Below are positions 47,638 to 51,516 of a DNA stretch of 64,000 nucleotides, piece by piece (within the stretch, counting starts at the first letter, position 1; each line of letters opens with the position of its first letter). The notes under the pieces are model-generated. The model had not been told where the DNA came from. It did no database searches and worked only from the letters and a program-made list of their open reading frames with translations. The DNA is taken from the NCBI RefSeq assembly GCF_027214005.1, contig NZ_JAPWGY010000003.1, forward strand, positions 186,001 through 250,000. The letters are read 5' to 3'. Source of the stretch: Kiloniella laminariae. Its GTDB lineage: Bacteria; Pseudomonadota; Alphaproteobacteria; Kiloniellales; Kiloniellaceae. The position numbers and the translations under genes are program-made.

Positions 47638-48417
47638 ATGATGAAAAAGTCGACAAAAATTAAGGAAGAGACTTTGTTTACTTCACCAGAAGGCTTGGCC
47701 TCGCGAGCCGAATTAATGTCACCGCAAGGTTTCCTTGGAAGTACGCTTCGCAAGGGCTTGGCCATTCTATCCCTGGCATTACCACTGGTGCTGTTCAACG
47801 GGGCCAATGTCCAGGCAGAGACAACAGACACTCCCCAGGAGGAAAAGACCAACCTGAGCGGATTGTCTCCGGATGAGGTTGCCATTGTCCGTCGGGTTGA
47901 AGCCTATCTGAACGAACTTAAATCGGTTTCCTCCCGCTTCCTCCAGGTTTCCAGCACGGGAAGCCTTGCTGAAGGACAGCTGTTTCTGGAGCGTCCGGGA
48001 CGCATGCGGTTTGAATATGATGATCCCGTGCCGATTGTGATGATAGCCAATGGCGTGACTCTTCTTTACTTTGATAAAAAGCTGAAGCAGGCAACCTACC
48101 TGCCACTTTGGAAAACGCCCCTGTGGTTTCTCATCCGGGAAAAAGTTGAACTTCACAAGGATATCCAGATTCTCCGGGCACAGGAATCCAGCAGTACCGT
48201 TCAGCTGGAACTGCGCGCAGAAGGCGAGTCTGACGGAGCACAGATGACTCTGCTATTCAGCGACAATCCTCTGTCTCTGCGCAAATGGGAAGTTGTTGAC
48301 GCCCAAGGCATCACAACGCAGGTTTCCTTGATTGACCCGCTCTATGACAACCCGATTGACGAAACCGTCTTCAAAACTGACGACCTTGATATGAAGCGTA
48401 AAAATACTGCGAAATAA
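47638..48417 (+). CDS. lolA: LolA-like outer-membrane lipoprotein carrier
   Basis: A 259-residue periplasmic lipoprotein carrier of the LolA family. The mature domain shows VRRVEAYLNELKSVSSRFLQVSSTGSLAEGQLFLERPGRMRFEYDDP, the usual LolA core, and a C-terminal strand with DPLYDNPIDETVFK. The signal peptide core (LAILSLALPLVLFNG, cleavage near VQAE) sits unusually far from the first ATG, about residues 42-59. An internal ATG at 47716 would give a more normal leader, so the start is not certain. It follows ftsK by 66 bases. Terminator at 48454. Confidence 0.88.
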   Translation: MMKKSTKIKEETLFTSPEGLASRAELMSPQGFLGSTLRKGLAILSLALPLVLFNGANVQAETTDTPQEEKTNLSGLSPDEVAIVRRVEAYLNELKSVSSRFLQVSSTGSLAEGQLFLERPGRMRFEYDDPVPIVMIANGVTLLYFDKKLKQATYLPLWKTPLWFLIREKVELHKDIQILRAQESSSTVQLELRAEGESDGAQMTLLFSDNPLSLRKWEVVDAQGITTQVSLIDPLYDNPIDETVFKTDDLDMKRKNTAK

Positions 48418-49459: not shown

Positions 49460-50236
49460 ATGTCGCGACGCTCCCTCCCTCTGGCCCTTCCTCTGGTTGG
49501 TGTTTCTTCCTGTGTACATAAAAGTGACACTCCCAAACCATTCCATGCCGTGGACGACAAGTATCTGAGGGCCGTTTCCCTGTCCGTTGAAGCAATGCCC
49601 CTGGTCATTCCCGCGCTGGGAGAGCTTCTCGACATACCAGGCCTGGTTTCCACGCTTGATGGCATTATGCTGACGGGCAGCGCCAGTAACGTTTTCCCCA
49701 AGCGTTATAACAAAGCCCCAAGCAAAGACGCTGAACCTTACGATCTGCAGAGGGATGAAACCACACTGCTTCTAATCCAGGAAGCCCTGCGCCAGGAAGT
49801 TCCCCTTCTGGCGATCTGTCGCGGCTTTCAGGAGCTTAATGTCGCTCTGGGCGGAAGCCTGCATCCACAAATCAATAAGATTGAGGGACGGATGGACCAC
49901 AGCAGTCCAAACACCAACGAAATGGAAGTGGACTACGGCCCGAGCCATCCTATCGATATCCAGGATGGCTGCCTGTTAAGTGATATTCTCAAGGCGAGTG
50001 AAGCCCAGGTCAATTCCTTGCACTATCAGGCAATTGATCAGTTGGGAGATGGCCTTGTGGTTGATGCACAGGCGGCTGATGGAACCGTCGAAGCGATTTC
50101 TCTTCCACGGCAGCGTTCTTTCGTCCTGGGTGTCCAGTGGCATCCAGAATATAAATCGGTTGAAAATGCTGTCTCTGCCAAAATCTTCAAAGCCTTTGGC
50201 GATGCAGTAAGAGCCCGTGCTGGCCAACGTGGTTAG
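49460..50236 (+). CDS. gamma-glutamyl-gamma-aminobutyrate hydrolase-like class I amidotransferase (PuuD family)
   Basis: A 258-residue stand-alone glutamine amidotransferase domain (peptidase C26). The nucleophile is C120 in LLAICRGFQELNVALGG, and the His/Glu pair is H228 and E230 in VQWHPEYK. PuuD cleaves gamma-glutamyl-GABA in putrescine degradation; others of the family act on different gamma-glutamyl amides. No other putrescine gene is next to it, so the role is unresolved. The start ATG has AAGG at 5 bases. The N-terminus is not a convincing signal peptide. Confidence 0.87.
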   Translation: MSRRSLPLALPLVGVSSCVHKSDTPKPFHAVDDKYLRAVSLSVEAMPLVIPALGELLDIPGLVSTLDGIMLTGSASNVFPKRYNKAPSKDAEPYDLQRDETTLLLIQEALRQEVPLLAICRGFQELNVALGGSLHPQINKIEGRMDHSSPNTNEMEVDYGPSHPIDIQDGCLLSDILKASEAQVNSLHYQAIDQLGDGLVVDAQAADGTVEAISLPRQRSFVLGVQWHPEYKSVENAVSAKIFKAFGDAVRARAGQRG

Positions 50237-50402
50237 ACTTGATATAAAACTGCTTTTCTGGAAAAGCCATATTTTCTCTGGAGTCTCGAAGAATTTATGA
50301 CAAAAAACAAGGTAATGATGTAATTACCAACACCATTATTTCCTATTTTACATACAATTATGAGATAATAATCCTAACACGTAAATTTTATCCACAGCTC
50401 CG

Positions 50403-50430
50403 TTGAAATCCCCACTAGATAGCTTATCTT
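50403..50430 (+). promoter_or_regulatory. promoter of the candidate small RNA
   Basis: TTGAAA (50403-50408), a 16-base spacer and TATCTT (50425-50430). The predicted start, about 50437, coincides with the first base of the first hairpin, as is common for bacterial small RNAs. Confidence 0.55.
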
Positions 50431-50436
50431 AGAATA

Positions 50437-50560
50437 ACGTCGCCTCCTACCTCACTCTTGGCGACGTATTCGGGAACTGGAATCCCCCCTCTGGTTCCTT
50501 GAAACTCTGCGAAGAAGCGGGAACACCTGGTTACCCCCCCAATCAGGTGTTCCTTTCTTT
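50437..50560 (+). ncRNA. candidate trans-acting small RNA with three C-rich-loop hairpins
   Basis: About 124 bases with three consecutive stem-loops. Hairpin 1: ACGTCGCC (50437-50444) with GGCGACGT (50460-50467), and CCTCC across the stem-loop border. Hairpin 2: GGAAC (50473-50477) with GTTCC (50494-50498), loop with six C. Hairpin 3: a 13-base stem (50520-50532 with 50541-50553, one G-U) and loop A-C7, followed by TTTCTTT as a terminator. C-rich exposed loops can pair with Shine-Dalgarno regions. This architecture resembles anti-SD-loop small RNAs of alphaproteobacteria such as the alpha-r14 and cuckoo types, but relation to a named family is not shown. Confidence 0.65.
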
Positions 50561-50718
50561 GCATTCGGGTCAGTTTTTGGTATATTTGATTATCAAACTG
50601 ATTCACGATAGTAAATTGACGTGATCTGTCATAAAAACCCAGTCATTTCCCATCCGAAACGAATAATTCAAAACCATTTCGAATATGGAATGATATAATT
50701 TCGCATCCGGAACATTTT

Positions 50719-51516
50719 ATGCCCACACGTATTGCCACATGGAATGTCAACTCTCTCCGCCAGCGACTTGAGCATCTCAAAGCCTTTACTGACAGCCATC
50801 AACCCGATGTACTCTGTCTGCAGGAAACCAAGGTTCAAGACAGCGAATTCCCGGAAGATGATATTAAATCAATGGGATATGAGACTGTTCTCTTTCACGG
50901 ACAGAAAAGCTACAACGGTGTTGCAATTCTCTGCCGGAACAGCATTTCCTCGAGCAACCGTAAAGTCTGGTGCGACAAGGATGACCGACGACACCTCATG
51001 GTAACCCTGCCCAATGGCATACAGGTTCACAATTTTTATGTTCCTTCCGGTGGACCCGTTCCGGATCCGGAACAAAATGACAAATTCGCACACAAGCTTT
51101 CTTTTCTTGAGGAAATGATTGCCTGGGCTGCAGAACCTTCAATCCGCAAGGAAAAAGTCATTCTGGTTGGCGACCTGAATGTTGCACCTCTGGAAACAGA
51201 TGTCTGGAATCACAAGAAACTTTTGAAATCCGTCGGGCACACGCCACAAGAGAGTGGGCTGATGGCCCGCTTAAAGGCTGCTGGTGACTTTACCGATGTC
51301 GGACGGCATTTCGTTCCTCCCGAACAGCCTCTCTACAGCTGGTGGGGTTACCGATACAAGCTTTCCTTTGCCAAGGACTATGGCTGGCGACTGGATCATA
51401 TTCTTGCGACCGAAGCTCTCCGTCCTCACCTCAAGCACTTTGAAGTTGTCAAGGATACCCGGAGCTGGGAGAAACCATCTGACCATGTGCCCAATCTGGT
51501 CGATCTCGACCTTTAG
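50719..51516 (+). CDS. xth: exodeoxyribonuclease III
   Basis: A 265-residue AP endonuclease/3'-exonuclease of the ExoIII (EEP) family, used in base-excision repair. Key residues are N10 in ATWNVNSLRQR, the metal-binding E36 in LCLQETKV, VLVGDLNVAP with the catalytic Asp and Asn, RLDHILAT, and SDHVPNLVDL with the terminal Asp-His. Length is normal. It is convergent with the cyclic-nucleotide-binding gene. The region directly upstream contains the candidate small RNA. Confidence 0.93.
   Translation: MPTRIATWNVNSLRQRLEHLKAFTDSHQPDVLCLQETKVQDSEFPEDDIKSMGYETVLFHGQKSYNGVAILCRNSISSSNRKVWCDKDDRRHLMVTLPNGIQVHNFYVPSGGPVPDPEQNDKFAHKLSFLEEMIAWAAEPSIRKEKVILVGDLNVAPLETDVWNHKKLLKSVGHTPQESGLMARLKAAGDFTDVGRHFVPPEQPLYSWWGYRYKLSFAKDYGWRLDHILATEALRPHLKHFEVVKDTRSWEKPSDHVPNLVDLDL

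Follow-up and report, generated by a model that had tools for sequence, protein, structure and literature searches.

A conserved small RNA beside xth in Kiloniella laminariae, a probable counterpart of Caulobacter RusT

A strongly folding predicted RNA of ~124 nt, whose series of three C-loop hairpins ends in an intrinsic terminator, lies upstream of xth in Kiloniella laminariae (NCBI taxonomy of the genus: Alphaproteobacteria, Rhodospirillales, Kiloniellaceae), at 50437-50560 on the plus strand of the window -- the whole 64,000-nt stretch of contig NZ_JAPWGY010000003.1 that was analyzed. Sequence comparison indicates that it is probably the Kiloniella counterpart (orthologue) of RusT of Caulobacter crescentus, that is, an independently transcribed, trans-acting RNA with its own terminator; this points to a greater age and a wider distribution of RusT than the single family of its description would imply.

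RusT (CCNA_R0199) is described as a 118-nt, Hfq-dependent RNA with four stem-loops, encoded in the lolA-xth interval; it is controlled by NtrX, is raised by iron starvation, and represses TonB-dependent receptors together with ompW (PMC11005374). According to the same paper, Hfq binds at stem-loop 3, while pairing takes place via the C-rich seed loop of stem-loop 2, including C53, for which compensatory changes worked for two reporters and failed for a third; the promoter has two predicted DnaA sites (PMC11005374). Homologs have been reported there at the same locus in Caulobacteraceae (PMC11005374, Vogt et al. 2024), and a full-text literature search found no report, in the article portions it returned, of a RusT family wider than the Caulobacteraceae.

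The small RNA and its locus

The predicted RNA has an MFE of -57.3 kcal/mol, compared with -30.8 (sd 3.2) for shuffled sequences (z -8.2; 0 of 200 shuffles equally stable). Folding confirms the three stem-loops with CCTCC or C-rich loops, the last followed by TTTCTTT, that the first-pass annotation had described from the letters of the sequence (Table 1). Of the four stem-loops of a RusT, the first, second and fourth (SL1, SL2 and SL4) are clear in the window and the third (SL3) is reduced, having at most three pairs in Kiloniella at a position where most of the aligned relatives have CUCC-GGAG. By analogy with RusT, the linker found in its place is a candidate Hfq site, and the SL2 loop would be the counterpart of the seed loop. 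The conserved linker is absent from the first-pass annotation.

Table 1. Features of the small-RNA locus and of the tonB lead; positions are those of the window, except for tonB
Feature	Position	Strand	Remarks
lolA	47638-48417	+	PF03548; the other locus marker
puuD-like peptidase C26 / class I glutamine amidotransferase	49460-50236	+	PF07722, PF00117; upstream neighbour
DnaA-box-like site, TTATCCACA	50388-50396	+	Perfect, just upstream of -35; same place in 8/8 Kiloniella
Promoter-like TTGAAA-N16-TATCTT	-35 50403-50408, -10 50425-50430	+	Score 9/12; Kiloniella conservation
Stem-loop 1 (SL1)	50437-50467	+	8 pairs, loop CUCCUACCUCACUCU, CCTCC at the 5' edge of the loop
Stem-loop 2 (SL2)	50469-50503	+	Loop AUCCCCCC at 50482-50489
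Linker CUCUGCGAAGAA	50505-50516	+	In the place of stem-loop 3 (SL3); identity 1.0 over 50501-50517 in seven relatives
Stem-loop 4 (SL4) with U-rich tail, intrinsic terminator	50519-50560	+	Hairpin 50519-50554, 14 pairs; loop ACCCCCCC at 50533-50540; TTTCTTT after the hairpin, to 50560
xth (exonuclease III, Endonuclease/Exonuclease/phosphatase family)	50719-51516	+	PF03372; downstream neighbour
tonB	L307 11760-12662 (G000:C58:55760-56662)		PF03544; just downstream of the sole PF00593 receptor

The promoter-like TTGAAA-N16-TATCTT is present as had been noted, though such sites are not rare: a 2-kb scan gave seven promoter-like sites scoring as well, against 2.0 in shuffles, so that the match by itself is weak proof. 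It is supported by the conservation of the block from 50380 to 50435 within Kiloniella (90%, against 49% for the upstream flank). The DnaA-box-like site just ahead of the promoter, named for its agreement with the DnaA-box consensus, has a counterpart, TTTTGCACA, at a fixed place in all four loci of the sister genus g4. None of the 43 more distant loci outside these two genera has such a site, so a DnaA box is not supported as a family-wide signal; as a regulatory link in the Kiloniella branch it is no more than suggestive.

The RNA lies inside the lolA-xth interval, on the strand of xth, with a gene for an FA hydroxylase and the puuD-like gene standing between lolA and the small RNA. The puuD-like gene adjoins many of the related loci too.

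Conservation within Kiloniella

Genus g1, to which the genome carrying the window (G000) belongs, contains eight further genomes, and the element was found by blastn in seven of these, being missing in G005, a genome that is 77% complete. Over the 171-nt query, the window copy is 97% identical to the other K. laminariae copy (L002). The seven relatives are on average 90% identical to the window in the promoter, SL1 and SL2, 97% in SL4 and 100% in the linker, while the intergenic flanks on either side show 49% (upstream) and 53%, and the first 60 nt of xth 62%; the promoter and RNA thus stand out in the eight Kiloniella as a conserved island, with a mean identity of about 90-100% as against values near 50% in the flanks. 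The sequence of the SL1 stem, 90% identical on average within Kiloniella, is different in other genera.

That no coding explanation fits the region, as the first-pass annotation had it, is borne out as far as reading frames can tell. The sole frame of at least 50 aa over the element is one of 60 aa on the minus strand. It is open in L002 and, though shortened by an upstream stop, in L008; in the remaining five of the seven relatives (L003-L007) it is frameshifted or disrupted, while the stems are retained. A coding explanation is therefore unlikely.

The position of the element between two co-oriented genes, with a terminator at its end, would also suit a cis element without trans action, whether it served xth as leader or attenuator or formed the 3' end of the transcript from the puuD-like gene. 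Conservation, however, extends beyond the terminator to the promoter and the loops, no riboswitch-like Rfam match was found in 50380-50620, and the distances from the RNA to xth and to the puuD-like gene vary widely among genomes, all of which makes a purely cis role highly improbable beside that of a separately transcribed RNA.

Covariation and distribution in the class

Covariance model R1 was built from ten sequences of two genera, and the wider model R2 from 30 sequences. Of the 23 family genomes R1 matched 22 (E<=1), and of the 61 order genomes 50 (E<=0.1), with one match apiece in 49 of the 50 positive order genomes; in the class sample it matched 31 of 385 genomes at E<=0.01, and R2 matched 72 of the 385 at the same threshold, some of them falsely.

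The first-pass annotation had proposed looking for compensatory changes in related genomes, and these were found: the stems are kept, and both partners have changed in 15 of the 24 pairs aligned for R2. On four of five covariation measures none of 500 shuffles reached the observed value, and on the fifth two did, in a test that ignores relatedness, which can inflate it; slid controls were all lower, on every measure. For each of the nine modelled pairs of the SL2 helix there is at least one sequence in which both partners differ, with 77.7% of cells paired and the alignment out of register in two genera, and the same is true of six of the 12 pairs of SL4, with 98.1% of cells paired. SL3 showed no covariation on the R2 alignment. 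In a pool of 66 distinct sequences -- some of them away from the locus, and with the order loci L124-L141 left out -- UCCCC occurs in the SL2 part of 61, and CCCC in the terminator loop region of 65. One of the order members left out of this pool, L125, has an SL2 without the UCCCC motif but with SL3 and the terminator retained.

A subtype is seen in seven loci from other families (L195, L200, L205, L173, L157, L074 and L188), with a C6-C8 run within GCC...GC of the first hairpin and UCCCC in the second hairpin as well. Separate from the locus, R1 gave weak matches (E 0.01-0.02) in three Kiloniella genomes to terminator hairpins with loops of C6 (L051 1501-1586 and L052 1501-1583) or C9 (L053 1501-1577), with no xth, lolA or puuD nearby; these are possibly further C-loop RNAs, to judge by their sequences.

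Since the models carry no information on neighbouring genes, synteny provides an independent test of the matches. R2 listed 84 matches in the class, 75 of which were examined for neighbours, the nine dropped being the second matches of G349, G240, G323, G119, G082, G092, G227 and G340 and the match of G412. At E<=1e-5 there are 42, a number that includes seven from R2 training sequences and counts genome G025 twice, and 39 of these lie within about 1.1 kb of lolA, the puuD-like gene or xth; of the other three, two have xth or puuD on the same strand some 5-6 kb away, and the last, in G400, has no xth, lolA or puuD neighbour in the 10 kb read. Between E 1e-5 and 0.01 merely 10 of 33 examined matches are at the locus, which means that the 72-genome count given above contains false matches and that weak matches are not to be counted. 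In G025 the two copies (L068 and L148) share 99.8% identity over 1.7 kb; one sits at the end of a single contig and the other 27 kb from the start of that contig, and they probably represent the unmerged overlap of a circular chromosome.

Relationship to RusT

For the comparison with RusT, family f70 was taken as Caulobacteraceae on the basis of PopZ similarity and of the locus itself; family f128, also considered for this role, was dropped after inspection of its four genomes. In the f70 genome G335, an ORF that by eye is like ftsK, lolA, an R2 match and xth follow in succession. In nine further f70 genomes xth was located, a tenth genome being of another family. The interval from lolA to xth contains a C-rich core resembling the one in L248, GCCGGAUCUAUCCCCUCCCGGCGGCGGCAUGAGAGAC, in six of the nine, and no such core in G412, G481 and G468. 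A pattern search found UCCCCUYCC in the lolA-xth gap of 12 of 14 Caulobacteraceae-like loci; it is missing from L236 and L253 in that search, and the seed motif is likewise missing from the xth-upstream stretch of L252. L252 and L253, both of the f70 genus g313, have in the stretch upstream of xth CUCUUCGUGUUAUGUGCC and a terminator, with no UCCCC seed. The C run of the terminator loop is absent from the four g320 sequences and present in some other f70 members.

In all nine Caulobacteraceae-like loci searched with R2, three of them preselected by that model, the best match (13-31 bits) lies on the lolA-xth gap. In the opposite direction, model R3, built from 12 f70 sequences alone, was run on the window with filters off and gave 15 matches up to E 10, none of them at 50437-50560. 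When R3 was run on 51 loci from the order and class, each of its 14 matches at E<=0.005 fell on the small RNA, and in 50 control loci, which come mostly from weak matches and so are terminator-rich, R3 gave eight matches at this threshold, reaching 27.3 bits, with R2 reaching 27.5; R3 scores below about 28 bits, and R2 scores of 13-31 bits, therefore mean little without position. Three loci score above the controls with R3: L205 (34.2 bits), L157 (29.7) and L173 (28.6). The last two, from one genus, bridge both models, as they score 49.5 and 37.7 bits, respectively, with R2, and L173 has lolA and puuD upstream. Because R3 misses the window copy and the bridging loci score with both models, orthology is called here by position, architecture and the bridging lineages, and not by direct similarity.

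The same failure of R3 to reach the window RNA would be expected if a trans-acting C-loop RNA had originated separately at the lolA-xth locus and were not an orthologue of RusT, and SL1, SL3 and the terminator loop do differ from those of the Caulobacteraceae-like sequences, while terminator-shaped hairpins alone score 20-27 bits. Such a separate origin nonetheless seems unlikely, given that slot and orientation are the same in many families, that a seed-like loop occurs in the same place, and that the bridging loci are matched by models built from both sides. Orthology with RusT thus remains the preferred reading of the Kiloniella RNA. StsR of Rhodobacter may be a name for the RNA of this same locus.

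Possible targets and mode of action

The first-pass annotation had envisaged a free-standing small RNA exposing anti-Shine-Dalgarno sequence in its C-rich loops. The free-standing RNA with its exposed loops is strongly supported, at the level of sequence, by fold, conservation and covariation; the pairing, in its generic form, is not. In a set of 424 ORFs, which covers roughly one tenth of the genome and takes its gene starts from a simple ORF caller, the loops paired no better with start regions than with gene interiors (Wilcoxon p 0.46, 0.57 and 0.97), and the window RNA therefore does not look like a general anti-Shine-Dalgarno device; a control with reversed SL1 gave p 0.004, which marks such pairing tests as weak. 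Runs of at least five G occur in 19 of the 424 start regions, against 12 of the 424 interiors.

The genome has a sole PF00593 receptor, which ranked 422 of 424 on cofolding and so is not supported as a target by prediction. The leader of the tonB gene just downstream of it contains a GGGGGA run. Among the 424 it ranks second for loop 1, eighth for loop 2 and ninth for loop 4, and 17th on cofolding. The 20-kb stretch containing tonB was chosen for its receptor and the three loops share a C run, so tonB is a lead, arrived at post hoc from modelled pairing, and not a result.

In the mechanism proposed for the RusT counterpart, the RNA would be transcribed as its own unit, ending at its own terminator, and Hfq would bind near the conserved linker. 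The C-rich loops, that of SL2 first, would base-pair to G-rich segments in the leaders of a restricted group of mRNAs, lowering the translation or stability of those mRNAs, and the RNA would answer to nutrient state, perhaps iron, or to cell-cycle state. Its targets have probably shifted from those of RusT, since Caulobacter has >60 TonB-dependent receptors and the window genome one PF00593 receptor; the first candidate would be the mRNA of tonB, the receptor's neighbour.

Small RNAs evolve rapidly, and not many are traceable across a whole bacterial class. A broader proposal, offered tentatively, is that RusT belongs to the ancient core of small RNAs in the Alphaproteobacteria, kept beside xth over much of the class with its seed loop retained and its regulon rewired -- in Caulobacter directed at many TonB-dependent receptors, and at the TonB energy supply itself where there is hardly any receptor -- and perhaps tied to replication by the DnaA box in the Kiloniella branch. 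If this is true, the fixed locus, seed-like loop and changing stems would make turnover of the RusT regulon traceable on a known tree.

Comparison with known alphaproteobacterial small RNAs

Searched against Rfam 15, the whole window gave no family at cut-off except a tRNA elsewhere. The Rfam search over the element region that the first-pass annotation had recommended likewise yielded no family at cut-off, the four matches to 50380-50620 at E<=10 all being to snoRNA or microRNA models and far below it. None of 39 related loci had a match over cut-off either; the strongest sub-threshold ones among them were Brucella CI408 in L247 and ar14 in L081, the former a 46-nt piece (E 8.6e-7, 38.5 of 398 bits) that adjoins the small RNA and is not on it.

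The first-pass annotation had also suggested that the RNA might be a member, or an analogue, of the ar14/cuckoo type (NfeR1; RF02344). With this group the window RNA shares several hairpins exposing C-rich loops, three of them here, with CCUCC at loop 1. A trans-acting RNA belonging to or descended with ar14/cuckoo, and blocking many ribosome-binding sites via repeated anti-Shine-Dalgarno loops, would also be in keeping with the ar14-model match of class member L081 (29 bits, E 0.17, cut-off 58.8), and with the finding that three of 30 ar14-model loci (L104, L113 and L116) are beside lolA or xth, L113 and L116 being the same places as R2 matches. The RF02344 model itself, however, matches nothing in 50380-50620 at E<=10 and nothing in G000, and over the 385 class genomes it has no match above cut-off, 25 of them having weak matches. 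The motif CCUCCUCCC, present in each of the three hairpins of ar14 members (PMC10746234, PMC3927594), is absent from the window element, and the loops lack the generic preference for start regions, as seen above. Membership is thus not supported, and an RNA of this kind is quite improbable here, though a distant tie is conceivable in view of the three loci beside lolA or xth; the looser suggestion of an analogue pairing through C-rich loops is plausible, although the loops show no preference for start regions among the 424 ORFs. One of the elements found by the ar14 model, L104 1480-1620 (G382), lies between lolA and xth and combines C-rich stretches with a terminator, and the slot in that genome may hold a fast-changing relative too.

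The alphaR8 RNAs of Caulobacter (SisA-D) have a seed, UUUCCUCCCU, that is single-stranded after a weak hairpin, and occur as four dispersed copies (PMC12559287). In common with the window RNA they have a C-rich seed in an alphaproteobacterial Hfq RNA (PMC12559287), on the assumption, by analogy, that the window RNA would bind Hfq. They differ in that the C-rich stretch of the window RNA is looped, the single-stranded UUUCCUCCCU core being absent from 50437-50560, and in their dispersed copies, as against the single match in nearly every positive order genome.

RusT is the closest known relative of the window RNA, fitting it better in position and architecture than does ar14/cuckoo, as judged from sequence. 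It differs in several respects: two genes separate lolA from the RNA in the window, SL3 is reduced, and loop 1 and the terminator loop are C-rich as well. Like RusT, on the other hand, the window RNA lies in the lolA-xth interval on the strand of xth, is about 120 nt long and consists of a series of hairpins ending in an intrinsic terminator; its promoter, with the DnaA-box-like site, recalls the two predicted DnaA sites of the RusT promoter, and its second stem-loop has the C-rich loop that, by analogy, would serve as the seed in Kiloniella too.
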